DNA of 55,442 nucleotides from an uncultured Chthoniobacterales bacterium. Its GTDB lineage: Bacteria; Verrucomicrobiota; Verrucomicrobiia; Chthoniobacterales; UBA10450. The notes under the pieces are model-generated. The model did no database searches and had not been told where the DNA came from. It worked only from the letters and a program-made list of their open reading frames with translations. Below are positions 9,890 through 31,944 of this stretch, piece by piece (the stretch's first letter is position 1; every line of letters starts with the position of its first letter). The position numbers and the translations under genes were made by a program. Location of the stretch: assembly GCA_902805675.1 (NCBI GenBank), contig CADCTA010000040.1, positions 1 through 55,442 of the forward strand. The letters run 5' to 3'.

Positions 9890-12541
9890 CTAAAGTTCGG
9901 CCGTCGGCTCGCGCACAACCTCGCGAGCCGATTTGTCGTCGCGCAGGCCCAGGAAGGTGGCGTGGCGCAGCAGTCCGTAGCTGGTCCACTCAGCGAAGCG
10001 CACCTGCGCGACGAGCTTCGGCTTTAGCCACTTGAGCTTCTTCATGTCCTCCGCGGTGACGCCTTCGCCGAAGTGGCTCTTCTTGCTGCTCGGCAAATTG
10101 GCGAACGGGCAGGTGGTCACGGCGTGCGGCGCGAGGCTCTCGAACAGCTTGCGTCGTGACGTTGGATTGAAACCCTGCCGCACCTTGCCCCCGAAGATCA
10201 GCTTCCGCCCTTCGTAGTAGCCGACGAGCAGTGACTGGAACGTCTCACCGTCCGGATTGTAGCCGCCGATGACGAACTCCTGGGCATGGCCGATGCGCAG
10301 CTTCAGCCAATCCGGCGAACGCGTGCGCGCGAGATATTTCGAATCGCGGCGCTTCGCCATCACACCTTCGAGGCCGGCGCTTTCGATCGAGCGCACGACG
10401 GCTTCCGGATCGCCGGTCAGCTCGGCGCTGTAGCGCACATCCGAATCGGTGACGACTTCCCGCAGCAGCTGCTTCCGTTCGAGCAGCGGCAGCGCGCGCA
10501 GGTCTTTGCCTTCGAGACTCAGCAGATCGAAAGCGTAGTAGACGATGTGCCACTCGCGTCCGGCAGAGCCGCGGTTCTGCAACATCTGGAATGATGGCTT
10601 GCCTTGCGCGTTCACGGCGACAACCTCGCCGTCGATCACGGCCGTATCGGCAGTGAGTCCGCTAACTGCAGCGACGACATCAGGGAAGTCGGCGCCTAGA
10701 GGCTTGTTCTTCAACGAGAGCAGCCGAACCGAACCGCCGTGCTTCAGCGCCTGCGCACGATAGCCGTCCCACTTCACCTCGTAGAGCCACTCATCGCCGC
10801 CCGGGAGCTTCTCGACGGGCGTCGCTTTCATAGGCGGGATGAACGCGGGCGCACGGTGGGGCGAGACTCTGTCGAGCCTGGAGGAGCGCTTCGCCAGGCT
10901 CGAGGGGACTCTCGCCCTACCTGCGTTAGCTTTGCCGCCGCTGCCGTCGCTTCGATTGCTGTGCCACGTCCTTGTCTTCTCGCCGGCGATTTCGTCGAGC
11001 GTGCGGCCGGTCACCGCTGAAGTGTCATCCTGCTTCGCCGTTAGCCGCTTGTTAGGCTTGCCGACCTTGGTGATCAGCCACTTCGTCTTCTCGCCGCCTT
11101 CATCTGTGCGCTGCACGTTCCACTCGCCGCGCAGTTTCTTGCCCGTGAGGAAGACGGTGAGCGCGCCTTTCCAGTAGTTCCCGTCGAGGACTTCATACGT
11201 CCCGATGTCCCAGACCATCACCGTCCCGCCGCCGTATTCGCCCTGCGGGATCACGCCTTCGAAATCGAGGTAATCAATCGGGTGGTCTTCCGTTTGAAAG
11301 CCGCTCCGCACGTCGTCGAGCTTCAAAGGCAGGTTGCGCGGCACGGCCCACGATTTAAGCACGTCGTGCATCTCGAGGCGGAAGTCGTAGTGGAGGTGAC
11401 TTGCCGCGTGCTTTTGCACGACGAAGCGGCGCCGGCTGCCTTGGCGGCTGCGGCGCGGCGCTTCCGGAGCCGGCTCGGCCGTGCGGTTGAAGTTTCGCTT
11501 CGCGTCGTACTCGCGGAGGGCGGGTAGGGACGCCGCGCTGCGGCGTCCGGGAGACGTTGCTGCACCGGCGGCCGTTCGAGCTCCCTGCGTTTTAGCCACA
11601 CCGCTCGGACGTCGCAGCGCGACGTCCCTACCAACGAACTGCTCCGGCAGTCGCTGCTTGGTTTTCAGCACAGGCGCGAACAGATCCCCGAGCTTCTTCA
11701 AGCGCGCGAGCGCCTCGCCGGGCGAGAAGTAGAGCGCGTCGATGTTCTTCTTCCGACACGCCTGACGCAGCTCGTCCCAATCGAGCGGCATCGAAACGAA
11801 TGGTCGCTCTCGTTTCGCCCGCAACGAGTAGACGCCGACGGTCGTCTTGTGATCGGCGTTCTGGCTCCAGTCGATGAACACCTTGTTGTGGCGGAGGTTC
11901 TTCGCCATCTCGGAGACGATCAGCTTCGGATGCTGCCGCTCGAGCATCTGTGCAACGGCGCGGGCGAATGGCTGGGTCGAGTCGTACGTGATGGGCGTGT
12001 TCAGCGGCACGTAAACCTGCAGGCCTTTCGACCCGGAGACTTTCACCCACGACTTCAGCTGCAGCTGCTCGAGGAGATCGCGCAGGAGGAACGCCGTCTC
12101 CGCGCAGCTGAGAATGTCTGCGCCTTCGCCCGGATCGAGATCGAAGACGATCCACGTGGGCCGCTCGATCTCGGGCGCGCGATGCAGGAACGGATGCAGC
12201 TCGATGCTGCCGATGTTCGCGCACCAGCCGAGCGTCGCGACGTCGTTGATCATGATGTAGCGGATGTCGGGTCCGCCTTCCCGCCGCGGCACCGGTGTGG
12301 TCTCCACCCAGGCCGGCGTGAAGCCCGGCGCGTCCTTTTCGTAGAAGAAGTCGCCGTGCACGCCCGTCGGATACCGCTTCAACGTCACCGGCCGCTGCGC
12401 GAAGTGCGGTAGGAGATAACGCGAGACGTTCACGTAATACTCGATCACCTGCGCCTTCGTGAAGCGGCCCGCAGGGTAGAGGACTCGGTCCGGATTCGTG
12501 ATCACGAGCTCGGGGTGCCGCGTCGCGCGTTTCGCTGCCAT
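9890..12541 (-). CDS. ligD: ATP-dependent DNA ligase D (LigD), POL-PE-LIG architecture
   Basis: 883 residues from ATG 12541 (MAAKRATRHPELV). Multifunctional end-joining enzyme that acts with Ku on double-strand breaks. Order of domains: primase-polymerase about 10-290 with the metal-binding FDLDPGEG and SGSKGLQVYVPL; 3'-phosphoesterase about 365-510 with HYDFRLE and the GVIPQGEYGGG segment; ligase about 565-883 with the nucleotidyl-lysine motif KWDGYR near residue 590, IDGEVVA and EGVMAKR. This order is the mycobacterial one, not the Pseudomonas PE-LIG-POL order. No Ku gene lies within the window. The two interdomain linkers are odd: residues about 304-339 are encoded by a family B element and about 541-562 by a family C element, both in frame. 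The long frame upstream of 12541 is another family B element read through and is not part of the protein. Confidence 0.95.
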   Translation of the reverse strand: MAAKRATRHPELVITNPDRVLYPAGRFTKAQVIEYYVNVSRYLLPHFAQRPVTLKRYPTGVHGDFFYEKDAPGFTPAWVETTPVPRREGGPDIRYIMINDVATLGWCANIGSIELHPFLHRAPEIERPTWIVFDLDPGEGADILSCAETAFLLRDLLEQLQLKSWVKVSGSKGLQVYVPLNTPITYDSTQPFARAVAQMLERQHPKLIVSEMAKNLRHNKVFIDWSQNADHKTTVGVYSLRAKRERPFVSMPLDWDELRQACRKKNIDALYFSPGEALARLKKLGDLFAPVLKTKQRLPEQFVGRDVALRRPSGVAKTQGARTAAGAATSPGRRSAASLPALREYDAKRNFNRTAEPAPEAPRRSRQGSRRRFVVQKHAASHLHYDFRLEMHDVLKSWAVPRNLPLKLDDVRSGFQTEDHPIDYLDFEGVIPQGEYGGGTVMVWDIGTYEVLDGNYWKGALTVFLTGKKLRGEWNVQRTDEGGEKTKWLITKVGKPNKRLTAKQDDTSAVTGRTLDEIAGEKTRTWHSNRSDGSGGKANAGRARVPSSLAKRSSRLDRVSPHRAPAFIPPMKATPVEKLPGGDEWLYEVKWDGYRAQALKHGGSVRLLSLKNKPLGADFPDVVAAVSGLTADTAVIDGEVVAVNAQGKPSFQMLQNRGSAGREWHIVYYAFDLLSLEGKDLRALPLLERKQLLREVVTDSDVRYSAELTGDPEAVVRSIESAGLEGVMAKRRDSKYLARTRSPDWLKLRIGHAQEFVIGGYNPDGETFQSLLVGYYEGRKLIFGGKVRQGFNPTSRRKLFESLAPHAVTTCPFANLPSSKKSHFGEGVTAEDMKKLKWLKPKLVAQVRFAEWTSYGLLRHATFLGLRDDKSAREVVREPTAEL
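10856..10920. repeat. family C inverted repeat inside ligD
   Basis: 65 bp. The plus strand begins GTGGGGCGAGACTC and the reverse complement of its right end begins GTAGGGCGAGAGTC; both arms continue to CGAGCCTGG around a 13-base centre. Each arm begins with GTRG and has a short local hairpin (CGAG/CTCG), the layout of a REP unit. On the ligD strand it encodes about 21 residues of the PE-LIG linker, rich in serine and arginine. The only copy in the window. Confidence 0.75.
11524..11631. repeat. family B REP pair (BIME-like), copy B1, inside ligD
   Basis: 108 bp starting GTAGGGAC and ending GTCCCTAC. Each end forms its own hairpin: a 9-bp stem with variable triplet GCC/GGC and loop GCT on the left, GTC/GAC and loop AGC on the right. 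The inverted middle retains traces of the AGCGTGGC/GCCACGCT core. It has no stop codon in the ligD frame and encodes 36 residues of the POL-PE linker. Confidence 0.9.
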
Positions 12542-12576
12542 GCAGAAGGTAATCGCGCGCTCGTGCTGCGGCGATG

Positions 12577-12685
12577 GTAGGGACGGCGCGCCGCGCCGTC
12601 CGAGCGGCGTGGCTTGGCTGAGAGATACTGCGGTGCCGGCATGCGCGAGCGACGCGTCTCGGACGCCGCAGCGCGGCGTCCCTAC
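12577..12685. repeat. family B REP pair, copy B2, in the ligD/permease divergent region
   Basis: 109 bp with GTAGGGAC ends. Left hairpin has the triplet pair GGC/GCC and loop GCC, right hairpin GCC/GGC and loop AGC. It fills most of the 181-bp gap between the divergent ligD and permease starts, so both promoters must overlap or squeeze beside it. Confidence 0.9.
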
Positions 12686-12722
12686 CTTGACGCGCATTGC
12701 ATGCCCAACTAAATGCTGCGCG

Positions 12723-14054
12723 GTGAACTCCGAATCCGCCGGGACCGCCCGCAAGGTCTCGCTGCTGACCGCGACCTGCATCGTGATCGCGAACATGATC
12801 GGCACCGGCATCTTCACCAGCCTCGGTTTTCAGGTCGGCGATCTCCCGAGCGGCTTCGCGATCGCCACGTTGTGGGCTGTGGGCGGGCTCTGCGCGATGT
12901 GCGGTGCGCTTTGTTATGCGGAGCTCGGAGCCGCGCTGCCGCGATCCGGCGGTGAGTATAATTTCCTGCGCGAGATCTACCATCCGGCGATCGGATTCCT
13001 CGCGGGGTTCGTCTCGGCGACGGTCGGGTTTGCCGCGCCGGTGGCGATCGCCGCCATGCCATTCGGCACGTATGTCTCGGAGTTCCTGCCGGGAACGAAC
13101 CCGCTGATCTGGGCCTTCGCTGTCGTCTGGATCACGACCGCCGTGCTGCTCTTCGATCTGCGACTCGGCAGCATTTTTCAGGTCGGCTCAACGCTGCTCA
13201 AGGTCGCGCTCATCGTCGTGATGATCGCCGCCGGCTTCTACGTCGTCGGCTCGCAGCCGATCACATTCCTGCCGGTCGCCGGTGATGCGGCGTTAATCAC
13301 GAGCGCGCCATTCGCCGTCAGCCTCTACTTCGTCATGTTCGCCTACTCGGGCTGGAACGCGTCGACCTACATCGCAAGCGAAGTGCGGAACCCGACGCGC
13401 AACATTCCGCTTTCGTTAGGCGTCGGCACGTTGATCGTCACGGTGCTCTACATTGGCGTGAACGCCGCCTTCATGCGCACGACTCCGATTCCGGAGATGG
13501 TCGGGAAACAACAGGTCGCCCTCGTCGCCGGCACGCACATTTTCGGTGAGGCCGGAGGCCGGGTGATGGCGCTATTTATCTGCCTCGGCCTGATCTCGAC
13601 CGTGAGCGCGATGATGTGGATTGGGCCGCGCGTGACCGTCGCGATGGGCGAAGACCTGCGCATGCTGAGCTGGCTGGCGCGCAAAAACAGCCGCGGAATT
13701 CCGGTGAATGCAACGCTGACGCAGTTCGTCGTAGTGAACATCATGCTGCTGACGGCGACGTTCCAGACCGTGGTGAACTACGTGCAGTTCGCGCTCACGC
13801 TTTGCACGACCCTGGCCGTCGCGGGCGTATTCGTGCTGCGGTGGCGCCGGCCTGATCTGCCTCGGCCGTATAAAGTCTGGGGCTACCCGGTCACGCCGCT
13901 GATTTTTCTAACGATCGAGGGGTGGATGATGTCGAATCTGCTCACCAATGCTTCCACACGCATTCCATCGTTGCTCGGCCTCGGCACGGCGCTGCTCGGT
14001 CTCGTGATCTACTTCGTGTCGCCGAAAACAGCGCCCGCGGCGTCTTATAACTGA
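12723..14054 (+). CDS. APC-family amino-acid/polyamine permease
   Basis: 443 residues from a GTG at 12723 (VNSESAGTARKVSLLTATCIVIANM). The frame is open back to 12498, but that extension is the family B element read through, so I excluded it. About 12 hydrophobic helices. Helix 1 carries the APC substrate-binding motif IGTGIF; further hallmarks are GGLCAMCGALCYAELGAALPRSGGEYNFL and SGWNASTYIASEVRNPTRNIP. The nearest type is the LAT/serine-threonine-exchanger-like or amino-acid/polyamine antiporter branch; the substrate cannot be read from sequence alone. No obvious Shine-Dalgarno, so the start is moderately sure. Followed by a family A element. Confidence 0.9.
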   Translation: MNSESAGTARKVSLLTATCIVIANMIGTGIFTSLGFQVGDLPSGFAIATLWAVGGLCAMCGALCYAELGAALPRSGGEYNFLREIYHPAIGFLAGFVSATVGFAAPVAIAAMPFGTYVSEFLPGTNPLIWAFAVVWITTAVLLFDLRLGSIFQVGSTLLKVALIVVMIAAGFYVVGSQPITFLPVAGDAALITSAPFAVSLYFVMFAYSGWNASTYIASEVRNPTRNIPLSLGVGTLIVTVLYIGVNAAFMRTTPIPEMVGKQQVALVAGTHIFGEAGGRVMALFICLGLISTVSAMMWIGPRVTVAMGEDLRMLSWLARKNSRGIPVNATLTQFVVVNIMLLTATFQTVVNYVQFALTLCTTLAVAGVFVLRWRRPDLPRPYKVWGYPVTPLIFLTIEGWMMSNLLTNASTRIPSLLGLGTALLGLVIYFVSPKTAPAASYN

Positions 14055-14076
14055 ATTCGATGATCAATCTCCTGCC

Positions 14077-14178
14077 GTCATTCCGACCGGAGCGCAGCGA
14101 AGTGGAGGAATCCCGTGGCAGTAATGCTCGGCCGCTCCACGGGATCCTTCGACTCCGCTCCGCTACGCTCAGGATGAC
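14077..14178. repeat. family A REP-like inverted repeat, copy A3 (supplies a start codon)
   Basis: 102 bp, long arms on both sides. The right arm has stem ATCCT/AGGAT, another compensated variant. Its terminal ATGAC contains the ATG at 14174 that best starts the next secreted protein. Lies between two tandem genes. Confidence 0.85.
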
Positions 14179-15325
14179 CGCGCTCTTGTCGCTGTTGTTT
14201 TGCAGCCCTGCGACGATGTTCGGCCAAGTCCAAGTCACCGTCGACGAAACCGCGCGCTTCCTCGCGGGCCTGCCGGTAAATGGTGCACTCGCGCCATTGA
14301 TGCAGACGCCGGGCTGGCAGCAGCACGCGCGCGAGATGGACGAAGCCTGGGCGAAGAAGATGTCGCAGCAGATTCTGCCCATCCGCCAGTGGATGTGGGC
14401 GAACGCCGACCAATACTTCACCAGCGGCGGCCCGATGTTCTACATGTTCGGCGGGCCCGATGTGCTCTACGCGAACGTCTTCTTCCCGTACGCGAGCAGT
14501 TACATCCTCGCGGGCCTTGAGCCGGTCGGGCAGGTCCCGAATCTCGCGGCCATGCATCCCGACCAGGTCACGGCGGAGCTAGCCACCATGCGTGGCTCGA
14601 TGAGCACCATCCTGCGCTTCCAGTATTTCATCACCAAAGATATGCGCACGGAGCTTGGCCGCGGGAACGTCGCCGGCACGCTGCCGATCATGTATGTGTT
14701 CCTCGCGCGCCTGGGATACTTCATCATGGATGCCACGCCGGTAACGAGCCCGGCGCGCGGCGTAAAGATCACCTTCAAGGATCCGGCGCGGCAGCAGCCG
14801 CAGACGCTTTACTACTTCACGACGGATCTCTCCGGCGGCGGTCAGAGCGCGTTTCTGAAATGGTGCGCCGCGAAAGGCAAGGGCGTGAGCCTGCTGAAAG
14901 CCGCGTCATACCTCATGCACACGGAAGGCTTCAACGGCGTGCGCAGTTTCCTGCTCAACAACAGCCGGGTCATCATCCAGGACGACACCGGGGTTCCGCT
15001 TCGCGCCTTTCCGAGATCGTGGGCGGTGAGTTGCTATGGGCGCTACGTTCAACACGGCGAGATGTTTGGTAAATATTGGCAGCCCGATCTCGCCGCCGTG
15101 TATCAGCAGAATCCGCCGGCGGAACTAGGCTTCGCGTTTGGTTACCACTGGCAGCCGGATCGCGGCATTCTGATGCTTGCGCAGCCGGACGCGGGTGGTG
15201 CTGTTCCGGTGAATGCCGCGCCGATATCCGCGCCGCAACCGCCCGTGATGAAGGCTTTGCCGCCTACGCCGCAACAGGCGCCTCGGAGCCGATCAACTGC
15301 CCCTGGCAAGGCGAAGAAGCGCTAG
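14174..15325 (+). CDS. secreted protein of unknown function, paralogue 1 of a tandem pair
   Basis: 383 residues from ATG 14174, giving a short signal peptide (TALLSLLFCSPATMFGQ) and an exported protein. The frame opens at 14060, but the extra residues are just the translated family A element. Shared with the next gene: a beginning ETARFLAGL, PMFYMFGGPDVLYANVFFPYA, YILAGLEPVG, an FITKDM segment, GTLPIMYVFLARLGY, TLYYFTTDLS, LLKAASYLMH, VIIQDDTGVP, GRYV and FGYHWQPDRG. The conserved tyrosine/aspartate-rich motifs suggest one globular domain of about 340 residues. The C-terminal 40 residues are proline- and serine-rich and basic. I do not recognise a named family; unknown secreted family. Confidence 0.8.
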   Translation: MTALLSLLFCSPATMFGQVQVTVDETARFLAGLPVNGALAPLMQTPGWQQHAREMDEAWAKKMSQQILPIRQWMWANADQYFTSGGPMFYMFGGPDVLYANVFFPYASSYILAGLEPVGQVPNLAAMHPDQVTAELATMRGSMSTILRFQYFITKDMRTELGRGNVAGTLPIMYVFLARLGYFIMDATPVTSPARGVKITFKDPARQQPQTLYYFTTDLSGGGQSAFLKWCAAKGKGVSLLKAASYLMHTEGFNGVRSFLLNNSRVIIQDDTGVPLRAFPRSWAVSCYGRYVQHGEMFGKYWQPDLAAVYQQNPPAELGFAFGYHWQPDRGILMLAQPDAGGAVPVNAAPISAPQPPVMKALPPTPQQAPRSRSTAPGKAKKR

Positions 15326-15360
15326 GTTGCCGAGTGGAGATTGCTGCGCTCAACCAGGCT

Positions 15361-15451
15361 GTCATTCCGAGCGAAGTCGAGGAATCCCGTGGCAATACCT
15401 CCCGTGTCGCCACGGGATTCCTCCACTTCGCTTCGCTCCGGTCGGAATGAC
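15361..15451. repeat. family A REP-like inverted repeat, copy A4
   Basis: 91 bp, short left arm and long right arm, both with ATTCC/GGAAT inner stems. Lies between the two secreted paralogues, 35 bp after the first stop and 27 bp before the second start. Confidence 0.88.
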
Positions 15452-15478
15452 AGCTAGTCCTTAGCCGCCCATAACCGC

Positions 15479-16639
15479 ATGCTGAAGCGCCTCATCCTCT
15501 GCGCTGCCGTTGCACTGTGCGGCAGCGTGCATGCGGCCGCCCCCAGCCCGAACGCGACGGCGAAGTTTCTTGCCGGCTTATCGACAGGTGGCGGCGAGAC
15601 TGAGAATTACGTCAGTCGCGCCGTCTGGGCCGAACACGCCGCGCAATTCGACAAAGGATGGGCGCAACTCGAGCGGCGCCAGCTCTCGATGATCCGCGAG
15701 TGGGGCCCGCAATTCCTCGGAGGCTCCTACGAGTCCGAGGCGCCGATGTTCTACATGTTCAGCGGCCCGGATTTTCTCTACGCGAACGCTTTCTTCCCCT
15801 ACGCGCGCACTTACATCCTGTGCGGCATTGAGCCGGTGGGCACGCTGCCGGATGTCACGCGCATCGCGCCCGAGGTATTGCCCTCCGCGCTCGCGAACCT
15901 GCGCAAGAGCATGGAGTCGGTGCTGAGCTTCAGCTTCTTCATCACGAAGAACATGAAGATCGATCTCCAGCAGACGCAGCTCAACGGCACGCTGCCGGTG
16001 CTGTATGTCTTCCTCGCGCGCGCCGGCTACACGATCGATGAGGTGGAGTTCGTCGCACTCGATCGCTCCGGCAATTTCACCAGCGCGGGCAAAGGCAACA
16101 CGCCGGGTGTGCGCATCGACTTCAGCTCCGACGAAGGCGGCACGCAGACGCTCTACTACTTCGCGAGCGATCTCTCTGACTGGGCCACACAGTCGAACCC
16201 GGGATTCGTGCGATTCCTCGAAGCGCAGGGTCGCGGCCTCACGCTGCTCAAAGCCGCGTCCTACCTGATGCACGGGCAGAACTTCGATCGCGTCCGTGAG
16301 TTCCTGATGAACAACAGCAGCGTCATCGTGCAGGACGACTCCGGGGTTCCGTATCGCTTCTTCGATCCCGACCAGTGGATCCTGCGGCTCTGCGGTCGCT
16401 ATGTGGGGCCGATCGACATCTTCAAACAGCATGTGCAGCCGGCGCTCGCGAACGCCTTCAACGCACGCGTGCCGGCGCCACTCGATTTCGGGTTCGGTTA
16501 TCAATGGCAACCGAACCGCTCCGGACTGGTGATCGCGCACCCGCGCGCCGCCTCAGCGCTCCCGCCCGAGGAGGAGCCGGAGGAACCGCGCATCCGAGAA
16601 CGTGCCCCCGTTTCCATGCCGGACGACGACGAGGCCTAA
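15479..16639 (+). CDS. secreted protein of unknown function, paralogue 2 of a tandem pair
   Basis: 386 residues, start ATG 15479, with a clear signal peptide (MLKRLILCAAVALCGSVHAA). Colinear with the preceding gene: TAKFLAGLS, PMFYMFSGPDFLYANAFFPYA, YILCGIEPVG, FITKNM, GTLPVLYVFLARAGYTIDEVEF, TLYYFASDLSD, LLKAASYLMHG, VIVQDDSGVPYRFF, LRLCGRYVGPI and DFGFGYQWQPNRSG. Side chains of the shared motifs are better conserved than the linkers, as expected of an old duplication with retained function. The tail is acidic (EEEPEEPRIRE, PDDDEA), in contrast to the basic tail of paralogue 1. Its 3' end overlaps the convergent serine-hydrolase gene by 87 bp. Function unknown. Confidence 0.85.
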   Translation: MLKRLILCAAVALCGSVHAAAPSPNATAKFLAGLSTGGGETENYVSRAVWAEHAAQFDKGWAQLERRQLSMIREWGPQFLGGSYESEAPMFYMFSGPDFLYANAFFPYARTYILCGIEPVGTLPDVTRIAPEVLPSALANLRKSMESVLSFSFFITKNMKIDLQQTQLNGTLPVLYVFLARAGYTIDEVEFVALDRSGNFTSAGKGNTPGVRIDFSSDEGGTQTLYYFASDLSDWATQSNPGFVRFLEAQGRGLTLLKAASYLMHGQNFDRVREFLMNNSSVIVQDDSGVPYRFFDPDQWILRLCGRYVGPIDIFKQHVQPALANAFNARVPAPLDFGFGYQWQPNRSGLVIAHPRAASALPPEEEPEEPRIRERAPVSMPDDDEA

Positions 16640-17554
16640 CGAAGGGATCGCGTAGAGCCGCTGATAACGCGAGCCGACGCACATGACGAGATCGCTCGGC
16701 GCGGCGTTGCAGATGGCGGCGTTGCTCCAGCTTTGCGAGTGCCACTTCGGCGTCAGCGCCGCTTCAAAATCAAACTCTCGTCCGCCGGGCGCGTTGCCGT
16801 TGTTCCACCAGCCGAAGCTGTAGGCCTGATTTGCTGATGAGCCGCGCACAGCCTGCGAAAACGTGCCGGTGGAAACAACAGGCGAGCCTCCGTTGACGGC
16901 GAGTTGCCCGATCTTCGCCCATTGCCGCGCACTTAAGGCCCAGCCCGCAGCGAGGAGGGGATTGCCCGCGCTGTCCTTCAGGTAACGCTGACGGCCGAGC
17001 CCCAGCCGACTGAGCACACGTCGCTCGAGATAGGCAGTCGGGTCTTTGCCGCCCAGCTTCGATTTGAGGACCCGATGAAAAACCTGCAGCTGACTCGGCC
17101 CGTAAATGAAGGCACTGCCCGGTTCCGCCAGGATCGGCAGCTTGACTGCGATCGCGTCGCGATCACCAGGATTGTCGCGATGCAGTCGCAGCCCCTGCTC
17201 CAGGCCGGCGGAGAAATCGAGCAACTGGCGAATCGTCACGCGTGCCTTACGCGGGTCGTTGCGCCACTCCGGGATCGTCTCCGCGACTCGCTCATCCAGA
17301 TTCAGCAACCCGTCCTGCGCCGCAGCGAGGCCAGCGAGACACCAGAACGCCTTCGTCCCGCTAAAGATCCTCCGCGCCTCGTTAGCGCCCTGTTCGTGCA
17401 GCGTCTTGCCATTCTGAATGACGAGGAGCGAAGCGCCTTTGCGGCTTGCGGAGTAAGCGGCGGCGGCGCGAACGGATTCAGGGTTAACTTCGCCGAACGC
17501 CGAGGATGTCGTCGAGGCGACGAGAAGAAGCGCGAGAGCCGTCCGCATTCTCAT
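16553..17554 (-). CDS. secreted serine hydrolase, beta-lactamase/PBP-like (class C fold)
   Basis: 333 residues with a signal peptide (RTALALLLVASTTSSAFG). The nucleophile motif SxxK is SGTK in RRIFSGTKAFWCLAG, preceded by LLVIQNGKTLHEQGA; the second motif is the tyrosine in FIYGPSQLQVF, and the basic triad near the end is RHG in VVVRHGNGG. Length and layout fit Pfam Beta-lactamase (PF00144): peptidases and esterases of the cell envelope rather than true resistance enzymes. Start ATG 17554 overlaps the stop of the YkgJ-like gene (ATGA), which points to translational coupling. Its last 87 bp overlap the convergent secreted paralogue. Confidence 0.88.
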   Translation of the reverse strand: MRMRTALALLLVASTTSSAFGEVNPESVRAAAAYSASRKGASLLVIQNGKTLHEQGANEARRIFSGTKAFWCLAGLAAAQDGLLNLDERVAETIPEWRNDPRKARVTIRQLLDFSAGLEQGLRLHRDNPGDRDAIAVKLPILAEPGSAFIYGPSQLQVFHRVLKSKLGGKDPTAYLERRVLSRLGLGRQRYLKDSAGNPLLAAGWALSARQWAKIGQLAVNGGSPVVSTGTFSQAVRGSSANQAYSFGWWNNGNAPGGREFDFEAALTPKWHSQSWSNAAICNAAPSDLVMCVGSRYQRLYAIPSLGLVVVRHGNGGTFSDARFLRLLLGRER

Positions 17555-18000
17555 CGCAACTGCTTAACCGCTTCACGGACGGCGTGCGGCAACGCGCTCG
17601 CGCCATTTCCACCAAGCTCCGCATCGATTGTCTCGAGCCGCTGGATGAGATCCGCCACTTCGCGTCTCGCGTATGGCCCGCCAGCAGCGGCGCAGAAGTG
17701 TGTGCGGCAACCGAACGGTCGGTCAGCGTAGATCAGGCATTTACCCGCGCGCTGGTCGAGCAGGGGACAAGCTCCGTCCGCCGACACGGGCAGATCCTTG
17801 CGTCCACTCGCGCGTAGACCCTTCGCCGCGACGAGCGCTTCCCCGCGAGTGAGAAACGGCGTTCGTCCTGTGAGCTTGAACTGGCAGCATTCATTTAAGC
17901 GCATGCAGCTGCGCTCGATCGGGCGCTCCGCGAGGTCGGCGTAAATCTGCCGCACTCTGCTTATCGCCGCATCGCGCCCGCCGTGTGGTTCTCGTGCCAT
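17551..18000 (-). CDS. YkgJ-like cysteine-cluster protein (putative zinc/iron chelator)
   Basis: 149 residues from ATG 18000. The frame continues 27 codons upstream into a family B element, which I excluded. The cysteines have the usual family pattern: CMRLNECCQF near residue 33, ACPLLD, then KCLIYADRPFGCRTHFC. This corresponds to the YkgJ/Fe-S or zinc-binding cluster family, with a conserved 'R.GACPFL....C.IY..RP..CR.F.C' layout. The metal and role are not established. Overlaps the serine-hydrolase start by 4 bp. Confidence 0.88.
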   Translation of the reverse strand: MAREPHGGRDAAISRVRQIYADLAERPIERSCMRLNECCQFKLTGRTPFLTRGEALVAAKGLRASGRKDLPVSADGACPLLDQRAGKCLIYADRPFGCRTHFCAAAGGPYARREVADLIQRLETIDAELGGNGASALPHAVREAVKQLR

Positions 18001-18010
18001 CGGTGTTACG

Positions 18011-18118
18011 GTAGGGACGCCGCGCTGCGGCGTCCGAGCAGCGTGGCTGTGCCTACGGATACAGCATGCGCACAAATGCACACCACGCGCCTCGGACAGC
18101 GCAGCGCGCTGTCCCTAC
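18011..18118. repeat. family B REP pair, copy B3
   Basis: 108 bp, GTAGGGAC ends. Left hairpin triplet GCC/GGC with loop GCT, right hairpin AGC/GCT with loop AGC. It lies directly upstream of the YkgJ-like gene, 10 bp from its ATG, and after the stop of the flavoprotein gene. Confidence 0.9.
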
Positions 18119-18142
18119 CAGGCTGTCCGTGAAGCCGCGCGT

Positions 18143-19378: not shown

Positions 19379-19439
19379 TCCCACAGGATAGCGCACCGCG
19401 TGTGTCCGCGCGCCGCATCATCGCGGTTGCGCGCAGCTC

Positions 19440-20300: not shown

Positions 20301-20319
20301 GCAGTTCCGCTGGCTGCGA

Positions 20320-21039: not shown

Positions 21040-21154
21040 CGCACCAAATGCTTACCGCCAAAGCTCGAGCGATCCACCAGAAACGCGTTCAGCTCGGCAA
21101 GCATCTCGACACGCCAGCGGCGGAGCGTTGTATTTGTAGCCTCAGAAAGCTTCG

Positions 21155-22237: not shown

Positions 22238-22328
22238 CCAACCTACGCTTCAGGCGAGGCGGCGGCGCAAAGGAGATCTCGTGCCGACCGGTTCCGAAGG
22301 AAATAGTTAGTTCGCGTAAGGAAAGGCA

Positions 22329-24821: not shown

Positions 24822-24853
24822 GGAGCGTTCGACGCGGCAGTGCAGTGCAGGAG

Positions 24854-26173: not shown

Positions 26174-26217
26174 GACGAGAACAGTCCAGCCGCCCACCGC
26201 GGGCCGCAACTCGCAGG

Positions 26218-27021
26218 CTACCGCCGGATTCCCGCTCGCAGCCGCTCAAACTCGGCCGGGGCCATGGCGTGATTCGTCGCGATCTTGAAGCGGCGGCGCA
26301 GATAATCTTCGAACGAGACCCACTCCCCCTGGTACTCGATGGTCCGCGAGTAGGCACACATTTTGACGAATGGCTCCACCTTCGACAGTCGTCGCAAAAG
26401 GTAGAACAGCGTCGCGCTACAGAGGACACTTGCGCCGAGCAGCGTGAAGAGCAGGACGGTGTTTCGCCCCGCCTGGCGCGAAGCTTCTCGTTTGTGCATC
26501 CAGAGAAGGCGATGCTCCTCGTCGCCCATCACTTGCAGGAGCCCGCGGATCCGATCCATCGAGTTCTTGCCGCGGTCGCTGTTCACCATCTCCAGGGCCG
26601 CGTCATGTTCTCCACGCCGCCCGAGCGCGATGGTTTCATCGAGCAGCGCCACGCGTTCTCTGATCAGCGGCTGCAACTCATCGAGCCTTTGCTGCTGCGC
26701 CGGATCGCCGGCGCTGAGCGCGCGGAGGTCGCTCACGTTTTGGCCCAGGCGCGCTCGACCGGTCTCGTAAGGCTGGAGGTAAACGTCGCGCCGTGTCAGG
26801 AGGAACCCGCGCTGACCGGTCTCCGCATCGACAAGGCTGGAGACGAGACTCTGGACCGCGCGCTCCACCGCAAACGCGCGCGTCACCATCTCAAAGGACC
26901 GCTCGAGCTCGTGTTCGGCACGAAAGGCGAGCCATGCCGGGATGCCGATGAGCGCGATCGGCAGCAGCAGGGCGACCGCGATTGCAGTCTTGGATAAACG
27001 GGCAATGAGGTTCGGGACCAT
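26218..27021 (-). CDS. CHASE3-domain membrane protein without kinase output
   Basis: 267 residues from ATG 27021 (MVPNLIARLSKTAIAVALLLPIALIGIPAW); frames at 27066 and 27117 are also open. Helix 1 is followed by a periplasmic four-helix CHASE3 domain (ERAVQSLVSSLVDAETGQRGFLLTRRDVYLQPY, VALLDETIALGRRGEHDAA, ...GDEEHRLL) and helix 2 (TVLLFTLLGASVLCSATLFYLL). The cytoplasmic end is only about 50 residues: VEPFVKMCAYSRTIEYQGEWVSFEDYLRRRF...TNHAMAPAEFERL. That resembles the small tail that follows PAS or kinase domains with C..C zinc-type pairs (CAWCKxIRxxxGYW...SHGICPEC), but three of the four cysteines are replaced. The signal is sensed, yet no kinase or cyclase domain is present. Stop 45 bp after the amidohydrolase start region. 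Confidence 0.82.
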   Translation of the reverse strand: MVPNLIARLSKTAIAVALLLPIALIGIPAWLAFRAEHELERSFEMVTRAFAVERAVQSLVSSLVDAETGQRGFLLTRRDVYLQPYETGRARLGQNVSDLRALSAGDPAQQQRLDELQPLIRERVALLDETIALGRRGEHDAALEMVNSDRGKNSMDRIRGLLQVMGDEEHRLLWMHKREASRQAGRNTVLLFTLLGASVLCSATLFYLLRRLSKVEPFVKMCAYSRTIEYQGEWVSFEDYLRRRFKIATNHAMAPAEFERLRAGIRR

Positions 27022-27125
27022 CGCGGCAACTCTGTAGCCACCATAATCGCTCGCACAAGTGTTCATCGCTTGCCCGCTCTGAAGCCGCGCGCTTGGCTTT
27101 GCCGCTGCCTCTGGCATCGTCCGCT

Positions 27126-27767
27126 ATGAGAAACACATTGCTGTTAGCGACAGTGGGGGTTCTGGCCGTGACTGCGCTTCGCGCGGCGGCAGAGACGAAG
27201 GCCTCCGCCGGGACGGCGACGCTGACGGAGCAGGAGCGCGAGCGTGGGGTGAGCTACCTCGAGGAGACGCGGAGGGAATTCCTCTCCGCCGTCGCCGGGC
27301 TCTCCGAAGAGCAGTGGAAGTTCAAGTCGGCGCCCGAGCGCTGGTCGATTGCCGAGACCGCGGAGCACATCGCGGTCAGCGAGGGCACGATCTGGCAGCT
27401 GGTGAGCGAGAAATTGATGAAAATGCCGCCTACTCCGGATCGCCGCGGAGAGACAAAGGCGAAAGACGAGATCATCCTGAACGCGGTGCCCGACCGCTCA
27501 CGCACGGCTCAGGCGCCGGAGCGCCTCCAACCGACGGGACGCTGGGCTGATCGCGCGGAGCTGCTGAAGGCGTTCGAGACGACGCGTGCGGCGGAGCTTG
27601 CGCTCCTGAAAGAGACGAAGGAGGACATGCGGAGCCGTTTCGAGGAGCATCCGTTTCTCAAGACGATCGATGCCTATCAATGGCTGCTCTTCAACGCCGC
27701 GCACGGCAAGCGCCACACCGCGCAGATCCTCGAAGTGAAAGCCGATCCGAACTTTCCGAAGAGCTGA
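27126..27767 (+). CDS. exported DinB-family protein
   Basis: 213 residues from ATG 27126 (MRNTLLLATVGVLAVTALRAAA), a signal peptide, so it works outside the cytoplasm. The four-helix DinB fold is visible: YLEETRREFLSAVAGLSEEQWKFKSAPERWSIAETAEHIAVSE gives the first metal-binding histidine and HGKRHTAQI near the end supplies the other two. The family covers thiol-dependent metalloenzymes such as bacillithiol transferases, but secreted Verrucomicrobiota/Acidobacteriota members are uncharacterised. It is divergent from the CHASE3 gene with about 100 bp between starts. Confidence 0.9.
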   Translation: MRNTLLLATVGVLAVTALRAAAETKASAGTATLTEQERERGVSYLEETRREFLSAVAGLSEEQWKFKSAPERWSIAETAEHIAVSEGTIWQLVSEKLMKMPPTPDRRGETKAKDEIILNAVPDRSRTAQAPERLQPTGRWADRAELLKAFETTRAAELALLKETKEDMRSRFEEHPFLKTIDAYQWLLFNAAHGKRHTAQILEVKADPNFPKS

Positions 27768-27781
27768 GCAGCCTTCGCGGC

Positions 27782-27881
27782 GTCATTCGGAGCGAAGCCG
27801 AGGAATCCCGTGGCAGCACTGACCGTAGCGCCACGGGATTCCTCCACTCCACTTCGCTGCGCTCCGCTCCGGTCGGAATGC
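27782..27881. repeat. family A REP-like inverted repeat, copy A5
   Basis: 100 bp between convergent DinB and TPR genes. Short left arm, long right arm. The outer pairs are slightly decayed (ATTCG in the left arm; the right end reads GAATGCC instead of GAATGAC). Confidence 0.82.
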
Positions 27882-27913
27882 CAGACTCGCTGCGGCGCGC
27901 ACAGAGCAATCGC

Positions 27914-29035
27914 CTAACGGCCAGCCAGGTTCGAGCGCGCGGCGGGCAGGGAGCGAGCGCGCGCGTCGGCACGGGCGGCTTCGGCCGATTGGCCAAGCGC
28001 GCGGTAGCTCTGCGCGAGGTGCTCCCAGCTCGGCCGGTAAGCCGGCATTAGCTTTGTCGCGCGCTCAAAGGCTTTAGCCGCATCGCGCTGCTTCCCTTGT
28101 TTCGCATAAGCGACGCCGAGGTGTTCCCACACCATCCCATACTGTGGGCTGAGGCTGGCGCCTTTGCGGAGATGCGTCACGGCCGCACCGACCTGGCCAG
28201 TTTGTTGCAGGCAGTAGCCGAGCTGCGCATGGACAAGGCCGTCGTTAGGCATGAGCCGGGCCGCGCGGGTGAGGGGCGGGATGGCTTGTGAGATTCGGTT
28301 CAGGTTGATGTAGCTGTAGCCGACGCTGGCCAGCATCACTCCACTGTCCGGCGACACATCGGCGGCGCGCGTCAGCGCCTTGAGGGTGCCTTCCTGGTTG
28401 CCGACGGCCCGTTCCGCGCGCGCGAGCTGCACCCACGCCAGAGCGTCGGAAGGAGCCAGCGCGGCTGCTTTCCGCGCATAGGTCACGCTCTCCGCTTTCC
28501 TTCCGACACGCTGCGCGCAGTCGCTGAGGGCGAACCATCCGACCGCGGCGTTCGGTTCCATCTTCACGTAGCGCTGCAGATGTGGAATCGCCGCGGCCGC
28601 CCGACCCTGCACGGCCTCGACTTGTGCCAGCCCGAGGTGTGTGGCGGAAAGGTTCGGCTGCAAAGAGGCCGCCGTCTTGTAAGACGTGCGCGCGTCGTTG
28701 AACTGCTGCACGGCGCTGGCGATTGCGCCGCGCAGGATGAACGCGCCGGCACTGCGCGGGTGGCGCTCGGTTAACTGCCGAGCGAGAGAGTAAGCGCGGT
28801 TTCCGTTGCCCCCTTTGAGAGCGGTGAAGATTCCCTGCACGAGCGGATCACGGCCCGCCGGATCGGCCGATTGCATCGCGCTGCTCGGCGCCGGTTTCAC
28901 GATCTTTTCCGGCGGAGGCAGCTTGCTCAGGAGCCGGTCGATCGTTGGATCCGGCTGCTGGCCCTGTGCGGTCGCGGAGACGAAGATCAACGACGCTGCC
29001 AGCAGCTTCGTGGCGTACGACAAGCGCAGGAGCAT
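27914..29035 (-). CDS. secreted tetratricopeptide-repeat protein
   Basis: 373 residues. Residues 1-25 are a signal peptide (LLRLSYATKLLAASLIFVSATAQG). After a proline-rich spacer come about eight TPR units from residue 75 to 365, for instance SYKTAASLQPNLSATHLGLAQVEAVQG and AAKAFERATKLMPAYRPSWEHLAQSYRALGQ, each with the W/L-G-Y-A-P pattern. TPR proteins are protein-interaction scaffolds; no partner can be named. It is divergent from TraB/GumN across about 100 bp. Confidence 0.9.
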   Translation of the reverse strand: MLLRLSYATKLLAASLIFVSATAQGQQPDPTIDRLLSKLPPPEKIVKPAPSSAMQSADPAGRDPLVQGIFTALKGGNGNRAYSLARQLTERHPRSAGAFILRGAIASAVQQFNDARTSYKTAASLQPNLSATHLGLAQVEAVQGRAAAAIPHLQRYVKMEPNAAVGWFALSDCAQRVGRKAESVTYARKAAALAPSDALAWVQLARAERAVGNQEGTLKALTRAADVSPDSGVMLASVGYSYINLNRISQAIPPLTRAARLMPNDGLVHAQLGYCLQQTGQVGAAVTHLRKGASLSPQYGMVWEHLGVAYAKQGKQRDAAKAFERATKLMPAYRPSWEHLAQSYRALGQSAEAARADARARSLPAARSNLAGR

Positions 29036-29041
29036 CGACGT

Positions 29042-29070
29042 TTTGTAGATGAACCTCCTACGTCATCCAA
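29042..29070 (-). promoter_or_regulatory. candidate promoter of the TPR gene
   Basis: On the minus strand TTGGAT (29070-29065), a 17-bp spacer, then TACAAA (29047-29042), which ends 6 bp before the ATG at 29035. If used, the mRNA would have almost no 5' leader. An AGGAGG within the spacer is 18 bases from the ATG, too far to act as a normal ribosome binding site. Confidence 0.35.
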
Positions 29071-29135
29071 GCAGAATGTCGGTCGACAAGACAGCTGCGC
29101 CTTGCCCGCCCAAGAGTCTGCGGCTAAACGGTAGA

Positions 29136-30002
29136 ATGGTGTCGTTAGGTTCCCCGAAGCGCTGGGCTTTTGTCGCGCTGTTGCTGATTGCTGGGCTTCC
29201 CGAAACCGACGCGGCTGCGGTGTGGAAGGTCACAGGACCGAATGGCGGAACGATGTATCTCGGCGGTTCCATCCACGCCTTGCGCAGCACGGATTACCCG
29301 CTGCCGCCCGCCTTTAACCGCGCCTTCGATGCCTCCTCGCATCTGGTGTTCGAGGTGGACGACAAAGGGATGTCCGGCACGAGCAAGAGTCTCCTGAAAG
29401 CGGGCGCGTATCCGAAAGGCGACAGCCTGAAGAACCACGTCGACCCGCGCACCTATGAGTACGTGAAGCGGGTCTTCGCGCTCATGCAGGTGCCGGAGGC
29501 GAAGTGGGCCCGCTACCGTCCGTGGTTCCTCGTCCTCATGCTGCAGTCGCAGGGAATGGGCAACTTCTCGGGCCAGCTCGGCGTCGACCAGTTCCTCTCG
29601 AATCGCGCCAAGGCGAACAAGAAGCCGGTCTCCGGCTTGGAGAGTGGTCCCGAGCACGCGGCGGTCTACTCCGGATTGAGTGACCGACAAGGCGAGGCGC
29701 TGCTGCTCCACATGTTCATCCCGCAAAGTCAGGAGCGTGGCGATTCGCCCAGCTGGATGGGCGCGTGGCGCCGCGGTGACGCGGACGCGATTGCCGCGAG
29801 CATGCACCAGGCGTATCGCGAGTTTCCGGCCTGGGCGGTGCGCATCCTCGATGAACGCAACCGGCGCTGGATGCCGAAGATCGAAGGCTATCTGCGGAGC
29901 GGCGAAACGCACTACGTCATCGTCGGCGCGGCGCACCTCGGCGGTCCGAATGGTCTGCTCACGATGCTGCGGGCCAGGGGCTACCAGGCGGCGCAACTCT
30001 GA
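29136..30002 (+). CDS. secreted TraB/GumN-family protein
   Basis: 288 residues from ATG 29136 (MVSLGSPKRWAFVALLLIAGLPETDAAA), a signal peptide; the frame also opens at 29049, but the extra part has no signal features. TraB/GumN hallmarks: VWKVTGPNGGTMYLGGSIHALRSTDYPLPPAFNRAF, HLVFEVD, LGVDQFLSNRA, SGLESGPEHAAVYSGLSDR and the ending RNRRWMPKIEGYLRSGETHYVIVGAAHLGGPNGLLTMLRARGY. Two conserved GxxH-type motifs are considered putative metal or catalytic sites of an erythromycin-esterase-like/Tiki-like fold. DUF1697 follows 8 bp later. Confidence 0.9.
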   Translation: MVSLGSPKRWAFVALLLIAGLPETDAAAVWKVTGPNGGTMYLGGSIHALRSTDYPLPPAFNRAFDASSHLVFEVDDKGMSGTSKSLLKAGAYPKGDSLKNHVDPRTYEYVKRVFALMQVPEAKWARYRPWFLVLMLQSQGMGNFSGQLGVDQFLSNRAKANKKPVSGLESGPEHAAVYSGLSDRQGEALLLHMFIPQSQERGDSPSWMGAWRRGDADAIAASMHQAYREFPAWAVRILDERNRRWMPKIEGYLRSGETHYVIVGAAHLGGPNGLLTMLRARGYQAAQL

Positions 30003-30010
30003 CGCGCGAG

Positions 30011-30550
30011 ATGCCGCGTTACATTGCGTTTCTGCGCGCCATCAATGTTGGCGGGCACGTGGTGAAGATGCAGGTGCTGAAGGCGCTCTTCCAAGGGCTC
30101 GGCTTTGCGAACGTAGAGACGTTTATCGCGAGTGGGAACGTCATCTTTCAGTCGCCGGCGAAAAGCACGGCTGCCATCGAAGAGAAAATCGAGCGGCTTC
30201 TGGAGAAGGAGCTCGGCTATGCTGTGCAGACGTTCGTCCGCTCAGATGCAGAGGTGGCCAGGGTTGCGACGTTCGAGCCGTTCGAAGAGGTGAGTGAGGG
30301 CTCGACTTTGTACATCGGCCTGCTCAAGAGTCCGCCGGATCGTGAGGTCGAGAAGCGGCTGCTTGCGGCGCAAACCGAGCGGGACGATTTCCGGCTCGAT
30401 GGACGCGAGCTTTACTGGCGCTGCCGAGGGCCGTCGAGCGAGTCAACGTTCTCCGGGGCGAAGCTCGAGAAGACGCTCGGAATGGCTACGACCCTGCGCA
30501 ACGTGAACACCGTGCGCCGCCTCGCCGCGAAGTACGCGCCGGAATACTGA
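30011..30550 (+). CDS. DUF1697-family protein
   Basis: 179 residues and complete. Family text: MPRYIAFLRAINVGGH..VKM..LKALFQGLGFANVETFIASGNVIF, GYAVQTFVRS, and near the end STFSGAKLEKTLGMATTLRNVNTVRRLA. Two small alpha-beta domains; activity unknown. Starts 8 bp after the TraB/GumN stop, so co-transcribed. Convergent with the zinc-ribbon gene across a family A element. Confidence 0.92.
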   Translation: MPRYIAFLRAINVGGHVVKMQVLKALFQGLGFANVETFIASGNVIFQSPAKSTAAIEEKIERLLEKELGYAVQTFVRSDAEVARVATFEPFEEVSEGSTLYIGLLKSPPDREVEKRLLAAQTERDDFRLDGRELYWRCRGPSSESTFSGAKLEKTLGMATTLRNVNTVRRLAAKYAPEY

Positions 30551-30580
30551 CGCCGCGTTCAGCGGTGGCGTCGCCAGTCC

Positions 30581-30671
30581 GTCATTCCGACCGGAGCGAA
30601 GCGCAGTGGAGGAATCCCGTGGCGACACCATCCGGTAAGCCACGGGATTCCTCGACTTCGCTCGGAATGAC
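30581..30671. repeat. family A REP-like inverted repeat, copy A6
   Basis: 91 bp between convergent DUF1697 and zinc-ribbon genes. Long left arm, short right arm, with ATTCC/GGAAT stems in both. Confidence 0.88.
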
Positions 30672-30715
30672 GCGCGGCTTTACGCAGAATACTTTGGCCG
30701 ACGCTAAGCGATGCG

Positions 30716-31822
30716 CTACCCGCCGCCGCCTTCCGCGAAGCCGAAGATGATCGCCATCATGATGAGGATGAAGATCACGAGCAGCGCGACTTTGATCCAG
30801 CTCTTCGGATACTTGCCCGCCACCGTCCCGGTGAAGCCGTTGCAAACGATGCGGAATGTCTTTGCGCCGTACTGGTAGGTCAGCAGCCAGAGCGGAAGCA
30901 GGACGTGCTTGAACGTTTGCCCGCTGTAATCCGCATCGACCTGCAGGTTCCGATGCGTGTCGCCCGGCACCTGCGCCGCGCAAAGCTCGCGGAGCTTCGC
31001 GTCCATCGCTTCGCGTGAATGCTGCGCCGCGGCCACGAGGTCGATCTGGTACTGCTCGACGACCCAGCCGGAGACATAGCCCGCGTCGTACGGGACCACC
31101 TCGGGCGTGGGGAATGGCTCCACCTTGCGCAGGAGCTCCGGCGGAACGCCCTTTGATGCGGGCACCAGCTCGTCATCGAAGAAGTGCTCGAGCGCGCCGC
31201 TCGCCGGCTCCCATCGCGTGTGCTGGACCTGACGTGTTTGGGTGCGGCCGTTCGAGTCGCGGTAGCTCTCCGTCGTGTAGTAATAATGTCCGGCGTCCGC
31301 AGTCCACTGTGCCGAGACCTGCGCGTCGAAGGTCCAGTACGGCAGGTAGACGCCGTGCAATGTGTCGGTAAAAGCGCGGTTCTTGAAACGATTCGGCGCG
31401 AGCCAGCGGCTGCGATACCAGGCGCGCACTTTGTCGCGCACATCGCCCTCGCCGAGCTTGAACGGGAGCACGCTCTCGGGCCGGATCGGCGATTTGATCT
31501 CGTCGTATTCGACCAGCGCCGGTGAACCGCAGAAGTCGCAGTTCTGCGCGACGCGTTCCGGTTTGAAGACCGAGATCGCCTCGCAGCTCTTGCACTTCAC
31601 CGAGCGCGTCGCGATCTCCCAGCCGCGCTCGCTTTGCGGGATGTTGCGGAGCGCGGTGACGAGGTCGTATTCCTGCACGCCGCCTGCCGCCGCGCCGTCT
31701 GCTTTCATCGGCGAGACCGTGCCGCAAAATGGGCAGACGAGTGCCTGCTTGGCCGCCGACCACTCCGCAGCGCCGCCGCAGGCCGGACAATCGAAGCGTT
31801 GCCGCGCAGTTACGTCGGCCAT
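30716..31822 (-). CDS. double zinc-ribbon membrane protein (YdjG-like partner of SPFH protein)
   Basis: 368 residues, ATG 31822. Two CxxC-CxxC zinc ribbons: CPACGG with CPFCGT (about 12-33) and CKSCEA with CDFCGS (about 76-97). Then a long domain of the TFIIB-zinc-finger/'primosomal-N-like' type (VLPFKLGEGDVRDKVRAWYRSRWLAPN, GVYLPYWTFDAQVSAQWTADAGHYYYTT, LLPLWLLTYQYGAKTFRIVCNGFTG) and one C-terminal membrane helix (VALLVIFILIMMAIIFGF). Bacillus YdjG/YdjI are the best-known relatives: a membrane zinc-ribbon protein that recruits an SPFH protein and a PspA homologue in membrane-stress response. The SPFH gene is immediately upstream here; PspA is not in the window. Confidence 0.85.
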   Translation of the reverse strand: MADVTARQRFDCPACGGAAEWSAAKQALVCPFCGTVSPMKADGAAAGGVQEYDLVTALRNIPQSERGWEIATRSVKCKSCEAISVFKPERVAQNCDFCGSPALVEYDEIKSPIRPESVLPFKLGEGDVRDKVRAWYRSRWLAPNRFKNRAFTDTLHGVYLPYWTFDAQVSAQWTADAGHYYYTTESYRDSNGRTQTRQVQHTRWEPASGALEHFFDDELVPASKGVPPELLRKVEPFPTPEVVPYDAGYVSGWVVEQYQIDLVAAAQHSREAMDAKLRELCAAQVPGDTHRNLQVDADYSGQTFKHVLLPLWLLTYQYGAKTFRIVCNGFTGTVAGKYPKSWIKVALLVIFILIMMAIIFGFAEGGGG

Positions 31823-31837
31823 CGGGGGATGCTCAGG

Positions 31838-31944
31838 GTAGGGACAGCGCGCTGCGCTGTCCGGGACGCGTGGCTACGTCGTGGGTGGTGCGCAGCGTAG
31901 CGCGCGAGCCACGCACATCGGACGCCGCAGCGCGGCGTCCCTAC
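31838..31944. repeat. family B REP pair, copy B4
   Basis: 107 bp. Left hairpin triplet AGC/GCT with loop GCT, right hairpin GCC/GGC with loop AGC. It sits between the SPFH stop and the zinc-ribbon start, 15 bp before the latter's ATG, and could uncouple their expression. Confidence 0.9.

Follow-up and report, generated by a model that had tools for sequence, protein, structure and literature searches.

The hairpin pairs B1 to B4

The DNA considered here, called the window in the following, comprises 55,442 nucleotides of an uncultured Chthoniobacterales bacterium (contig CADCTA010000040.1 of assembly GCA_902805675.1, positions 1 to 55,442, forward strand), and contains four short elements, B1 to B4, that are built as inverted pairs of hairpins. 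The elements measure 108, 109, 108 and 107 bp, respectively, and every one of them opens with GTAGGGAC and closes with GTCCCTAC. On the + strand of the window GTAGGGAC is confined to these four elements, and GTCCCTAC has one extra match at 1066, which is not within any element. In each element a GTAG head is followed by a hairpin with a 9-bp stem and a 3-nt loop; ~57 bp of spacer separate it from an inverted second hairpin whose GTAG points outward. All eight arms are perfectly paired over the 9 bp, and the loop of the B2 left arm is GCC, not GCT. A sequence-only reading had placed the four elements at exactly the coordinates given below with the same inverted ends, and its list of variable stem triplets, each of them pairing perfectly, has been recovered in full.

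Element B1 (11524..11631; GCC arm 11524-11548 on the + strand, GTC arm 11607-11631 on the - strand) lies in frame within ligD (9890..12541, - strand, with the ATG at 12541 assigned here as start), which encodes primase-polymerase, phosphoesterase and ATP-dependent ligase domains. The 37 residues encoded by B1 (304-340) are part of the linker between the polymerase and phosphoesterase domains. The aligned linkers of three same-genus LigD homologues are shorter by 8 to 17 residues; some of the original linker may therefore have given way to B1, and the site does not count as a clean empty one. Element B2 (12577..12685; GGC arm 12577-12601, +; GCC arm 12661-12685, -) occupies the stretch from which ligD and an amino-acid permease gene diverge, and B3 (18011..18118; GCC arm 18011-18035, +; AGC arm 18094-18118, -) overlaps the 5' end of a reading frame with a CxxCxxCC domain (17551-18081, - strand). 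Element B4 (31838..31944; AGC arm 31838-31862, +; GCC arm 31920-31944, -) is located between the genes 30716-31822 and 31959-33020, both on the - strand.

The ligD gene also carries a pair of a second family of repetitive extragenic palindromic (REP) sequences. This pair, at 10856-10920, has GTGG/GTAG heads and a GGCGAGACTC stem and sits in frame in the phosphoesterase-ligase linker; the REP-associated tyrosine transposase (RAYT) of this family is encoded on contig C108. As B1 and this pair occupy successive linkers, LigD has REPs of separate families in two of its interdomain linkers. Repair genes with internal REPs, among them a ligase gene of O. terrae, were already described in 2013 (PMC3733652, section 15).

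Copies across the genome and the RAYT gene

The source is one draft genome of 3.53 Mb that is 93.1% complete. The exact arm GTAGGGACNNCGCNNNGCGNNGTCC matches it 54 times on each strand, i.e., 108 times in total, with no match for the reversed control. Around 100 listed exact arms, in the window and in fetched surrounding stretches, at least 53 real inverted pairs and 7 partnerless arms have been read; further whole-element matches on contigs C4, C9, C94, C112, C113 and C120 are additional to the 53 pairs. A 54th pair (L075, 266 bp) combined a re-used right arm with a chance left arm and has been excluded. The pairs are inverted doublets of fixed spacing, with a length of 106-109 bp in 50 of 53 and a spacer of 57.1 nucleotides (sd 0.7, 50 elements). 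Fixed arm positions are 97-99% identical among copies, and the spacer is 48% identical, its middle third 33% (45 oriented elements). Arms and distance are thus conserved, and the filler is not. With up to three mismatches allowed, the arm yields 209 matches (11 in the control), a count raised artificially by the shifted palindrome on the opposite strand and therefore not used for decay rates.

The stems vary mainly at two adjacent base pairs, which are GC, AT, GG, AG and rarely GT, and the two halves of an arm change together. Among 22 distinct arms (decayed arms L033:854, L041, L058 and L080 and the chance match L075 omitted), 96.5% of the cells are paired compared to 89.7% after shuffling, with a covariation score of 0.250 compared to 0.114 that has been reached in 0 of 500 shuffles; sliding the partner strand abolishes the signal. 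At the two variable positions 93 of 100 arms having exact fixed positions are self-complementary, and re-dealing the 3' halves (100 arms, 50 elements) lowers the pairing from 8.79 to 7.73 of 9, with 0 of 5000 trials as high as observed. The excess of compensatory changes that had been anticipated for genome-wide copies is accordingly present.

A RAYT gene had been expected elsewhere in the genome and has been found on contig C68 (C68:45408-45845), flanked by the same hairpin pairs. It encodes 145 residues from a GTG start, as assigned here, and scores 95.8 bits in NCBIfam REP_Tyr_transpos (cut-off 80). The upstream pair (C68:45286-45392) ends 15 bp ahead of the RAYT start; in the downstream pair (C68:45842-46064, L033:2343-2565), whose GTAG contains the TAG stop codon of the gene, the spacer is long and built from a repeated inner unit. 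An assignment to an IS200/IS605 insertion sequence has been rejected, as transpos_IS200 reaches only 20.2 bits against a cut-off of 55. In the PDB, TnpAREP (4er8) is the only sequence at E <=1, with an E of 9.4e-13. The alignment contains the HxH motif, places a tyrosine opposite chain residue 115, which we take to be the nucleophile of 4er8, and shows W94, Q95, R104 and N119 to be identical. In the parts of the TnpAREP literature drawn on here, W94, Q95 and R104 are described as GTAG-contact residues and N119 as essential (PMC6006769).

A search of the genome for the Y1 transposase family has returned two genes, on C68 and on C91. The latter scores 63.2 bits, under the REP-associated tyrosine transposase cut-off, and its nearest downstream exact arm is 2.5 kb away, with the contig starting 341 bp upstream. 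The third, distant RAYT, on C108, has 36% identity and is associated with a separate repeat family of its own, GTAGGGCGAGACTC, which is present at 26 places in the genome at up to two mismatches.

The association of RAYT and hairpin extends to related genomes. A scan of named genomes has identified 28 RAYT relatives, 27 of them titled Verrucomicrobiota or Lentisphaerae and one Planctomycetota; together with 27 others, including the RAYT of the present genome, these make up 55 loci after removal of duplicates. GTAG hairpins occur there at 4.30 per kb in the 350-bp flanks compared to 0.124 per kb (14 in 112.8 kb) more than 1 kb away at the same loci. Upon exclusion of four loci with broken or cut frames, 51 loci remain (own included), of which 36 have GTAG hairpins on both sides of the RAYT and 11 on one side, i.e., 47 with at least one; HxH is kept in all 51 and the tyrosine motif in 49. 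The stems are wholly changed among loci (e.g., GGACNNCGC, GGACGGCTC, CCGGGGTC, GGGCGATTG) and GTAG is constant, as the search itself required. The distance between stems follows the distance between RAYTs (Mantel rho 0.579, n = 47, 0 of 5000 permutations as high).

Of 73 genomes belonging to the window's family, 45 contain the exact arm, and none of 44 genomes representing other families of the order does. Within the genus it is nearly absent, with 3, 0, 1, 0, 0 and 0 copies in G001-G006, where RAYTs are only distant or none. In the same-genus genome G004 the two neighbour genes of B4 are one base apart in the alignment and the element is absent; the flanks are too diverged for an exact junction or target duplication. 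The corresponding places in G005 and G006 hold unrelated spacers. For mobility, this apparent empty site in G004 is the nearest evidence, although not direct evidence.

Strong hairpins between genes or at gene edges, as seen for B2, B3 and B4, would also be expected from host transcription terminators or RNA stability elements that recombination has spread without the involvement of a RAYT. Since hairpins of this type flank RAYT genes and diverge together with them, since B1 is inserted inside a coding frame, and since B4 has an empty site, we have rejected this explanation as highly improbable. The same observations (108 arms, a RAYT between pairs, co-divergence of RAYT and stem, the B4 empty site) lead us to assign the elements to a GTAG REP family of bacterial interspersed mosaic elements (BIMEs) with a cognate RAYT. 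It is very probable that B1-B4 are inverted GTAG-headed REP hairpin pairs, likely copied as single-stranded DNA by the C68 RAYT. Each GTAG with its hairpin is predicted to be a separate recognition target of the enzyme, which would cut and join these arms. Cutting and joining of single-stranded REP DNA is known, from the parts of the source used here, for RAYT enzymes of E. coli, S. maltophilia and Marinomonas (PMC8266576). The proposal that a GTAG followed by a hairpin represents the layout of RAYT-mobilised REPs and BIMEs has been supported by both checks named for it, the RAYT gene flanked by the same unit and the excess of compensatory changes in genome-wide copies.

Several points weigh against this assignment. 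No movement or cleavage has been observed, and four of the 51 RAYT loci have no GTAG hairpin at either flank. Copy number is not strictly tied to RAYT presence: G011 (57 exact arms), G065 (17), G018 (15) and G071 (12) have many copies and no close RAYT, no exact arm copy occurs in G020 and G098 despite a RAYT of 60% identity in each, and in G040 (149 exact arms) the RAYT is split over three frames (L102:3001-3445). Eight of the 108 exact arms, located on later contigs, lie outside the stretches in which pairs have been read, and the anchor arms have been chosen as exact; because partner arms were allowed up to four mismatches, the contrast in identity between arms and spacers does not merely come from the choice of hits. 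Finally, folding of whole elements with DNA parameters has favoured a long arm-to-arm hairpin in 45 of 50 elements, despite the mismatches between the arms.

Unlike arms within a pair

The two arms of a pair are of different stem types in 51 of the 53 pairs and alike in two. It had been noted for the window that left and right arms often do not match each other, which is right and holds more strongly genome-wide than had been supposed. With the chance pair included, 52 of 54 pairs are unlike, compared to a mean of 37.5 when arms are re-dealt, and as many have never been obtained in 20000 trials. In related genomes, with types read by eye, pairs are unlike in 15/16 (G011), 20/24 (G029) and 27/41 (G040) cases, the last count retaining two near-duplicate neighbours (C14, C41); nine other related genomes pooled yield 18/20, which is not significant alone (2161 of 20000 as high). 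Among genomes with at least 16 pairs read, the largest share of like pairs (14/41) has been observed in G040, the genome with the broken RAYT. At the 54 other RAYT loci, 44 readable pairs have been obtained at 30 loci, 42 of them with unlike stems (34 of 36 distinct stem pairs), and as a control, same-side arms of adjacent pairs at one locus have been identical in 15 of 28 comparisons.

Descent of all copies from one mismatched ancestor would explain unlike arms with no need for selection against matching. Such an origin is in line with the presence of exactly one GCC arm in 46 of 53 pairs, and with a weak shared orientation of the spacers, which, oriented by the GCC arm, read 29 forward and 15 reverse with one tie (45 elements); as the spacer itself is nearly palindromic, this orientation has been of little help in telling whether pairs pass on as directed units. 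However, the partner arm is of several types (AT, GG, AG, GT), yet GC in only 2 of 53, and the 42 of 44 unlike pairs at 30 other RAYT loci comprise many with other stems (34/36 distinct stem pairs being unlike), so that we regard common descent as a rather improbable account.

The arms are mismatched at set positions, namely 9-10, 20-21, 27 and 29-30 as counted from the end, and consequently 41 of 50 elements have 9 bp as their longest uninterrupted arm-to-arm helix. A helix of at least 16 bp occurs in 2 of 50 elements compared to 14.2 expected on re-dealt arms (0 of 3000 as low). The effect reaches into the spacer: in 45 elements the spacer ends are complementary at 7.84 of 13 positions, and exchanging them within side and arm type gives 8.35, with 1 of 5000 trials as low as observed. 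Compensation therefore acts inside each hairpin, and across the pair there is avoidance. The earlier suggestion that conservation concerns the single hairpin and not the long inverted repeat has gained support from both sides, with a pairing of 8.79 vs 7.73 of 9 within arms and a complementarity across pairs below controls. The two arms of a pair may be kept different, in which case each would fold alone and not anneal to its partner.

These findings also bear on whether the elements are plain REPINs sensu Bertels and Rainey, i.e., doublets copied and selected as one long hairpin. Such an identity has been suggested by the constant spacing, by lengths of 106-109 bp in 50 of 53 pairs and by the long hairpin predicted in 45 of 50. 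The pairs here, however, are made of unlike REPs (2/53 alike), and across the pair complementarity is below swapped controls, with no compensatory changes across the long hairpin; on these two grounds the plain REPIN, which we had rated as unlikely, has been rejected. Making the arms alike would, by folding prediction, add ~13 kcal/mol to the advantage of the long fold. Since the long fold is predicted to win in 45 of 50 elements despite the mismatches, a purely thermodynamic account of the unlike arms is disfavoured.

One candidate cause of the arm mismatch, which we consider possible but somewhat less than evenly probable, is that replication stalls at long perfect inverted repeats or that these are removed, with the RAYT being indifferent; matching pairs would be lost and the survivors therefore mismatched, a process compatible with RAYT copying. 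Di Nocera et al. have suggested that unlike pairs protect from the SbcCD nuclease (PMC3733652, section 14). The rarity of helices of 16 bp or more and the reduced complementarity of the spacer ends both speak for a loss of palindromes. Conversely, G040 tolerates matching arms in 14 of its 41 pairs, and SbcD (TIGR00619) has no match in the present genome, in which a miss is possible at 93.1% completeness, whereas the same search has been positive in 13 of 14 controls, with 8 of these above the cut-off. For SbcC there is a weak match only, over 51 profile positions. The enforcer in this genome is therefore more likely to be a different one, unless the gene lies in the missing 7%. We also tentatively propose, at a probability short of one half, that unlike arms are a rule of verrucomicrobial RAYT systems rather than a coincidence, under which the two hairpins would be forced to differ by compensated changes at spaced positions that leave no arm-to-arm helix longer than about one stem length, and which many stem families would have reached separately. 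As the rule holds though SbcD has not been found in this genome, its origin would lie in the RAYT reaction itself, with each arm having to fold alone, or in replication.

In the second REP family, on C108 and other contigs, a GTAG head is combined with a GTGG head in 8 of 11 neighbouring pairs, and thus the arms of that family differ in the head.

Other repeats of the window and comparison with known REP systems

Two further repeat features have been noticed in the window. Another dispersed inverted repeat family, GTCATTCCGAGCG...GAATCCCGTGGC, occupies nine places between 3158 and 44790, with units of ~85-100 bp whose sequence is unlike that of the B elements. A reading frame of 2248 residues (46358-53104) contains many diverged internal repeats of ~84 nt that continue in the DNA to 54841, and its product looks like a repeat-rich surface protein.

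Comparison with published systems, as far as the portions of the papers used here describe them, places the elements close to the GTAG REP families and REPtrons of Di Nocera et al. (2013, PMC3733652). These have a GTAG head, a stem of 6-13 bp and head-out inverted pairs mostly 20-100 bp apart, and they likewise include repeat-flanked RAYTs, heterodimers, spacers that are sometimes similar in length and not in sequence, a TAG stop provided by the repeat, and insertions in genes, including the DNA ligase of the verrucomicrobium O. terrae. The difference is that the rule of unlike arms has here been tested against re-dealt arms and reaches into the spacer. The string GGGAC has 0 matches in the main text of that paper, whose consensus sequences are in its figures, outside the comparison. 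For REP/RAYT systems of this group, literature searches by titles and abstract starts have yielded Di Nocera et al. (2013, on O. terrae) alone.

REPINs of Pseudomonas fluorescens SBW25 (Bertels and Rainey, 2011, PMC3116915) share the fixed-spacing inverted doublet, conserved arms, a less conserved spacer and the link to a RAYT; they differ in that their doublets typically join identical REPs, with changes on one side of the long hairpin compensated on the other, whereas the arms here are unlike and no such compensation occurs across them. The BIMEs of E. coli with TnpAREP (4er8; PMC8266576) resemble the present pairs in the inversion of unlike REP types, GTAG recognition and a homologous nuclease. 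E. coli TnpAREP needs a stem bulge (PMC8266576), in contrast to most stems here, which are perfect and without a bulge. In the RAYT/REP pairs of Stenotrophomonas and other bacteria (Nunvar et al., 2010, PMC2817692) inverted REPs also flank the RAYT, and RAYT presence goes along with REP abundance; stems and phylum differ from those studied here.

The elements of the window thus are a GTAG REP/BIME system with a cognate RAYT, close to the description by Di Nocera et al. (2013), and its unusually clear rule of unlike arms is its most interesting part. For the fact that unlike REP pairs are preferred over like ones, the same authors saw "no obvious explanation" (PMC3733652). The 53 pairs of near-constant length, together with the 30 other RAYT loci with readable pairs, provide a clean set for testing its cause, be it a requirement of the RAYT, loss of palindromes or descent, and a RAYT with its hairpin pairs from an uncultured group is supplied for work on specificity.

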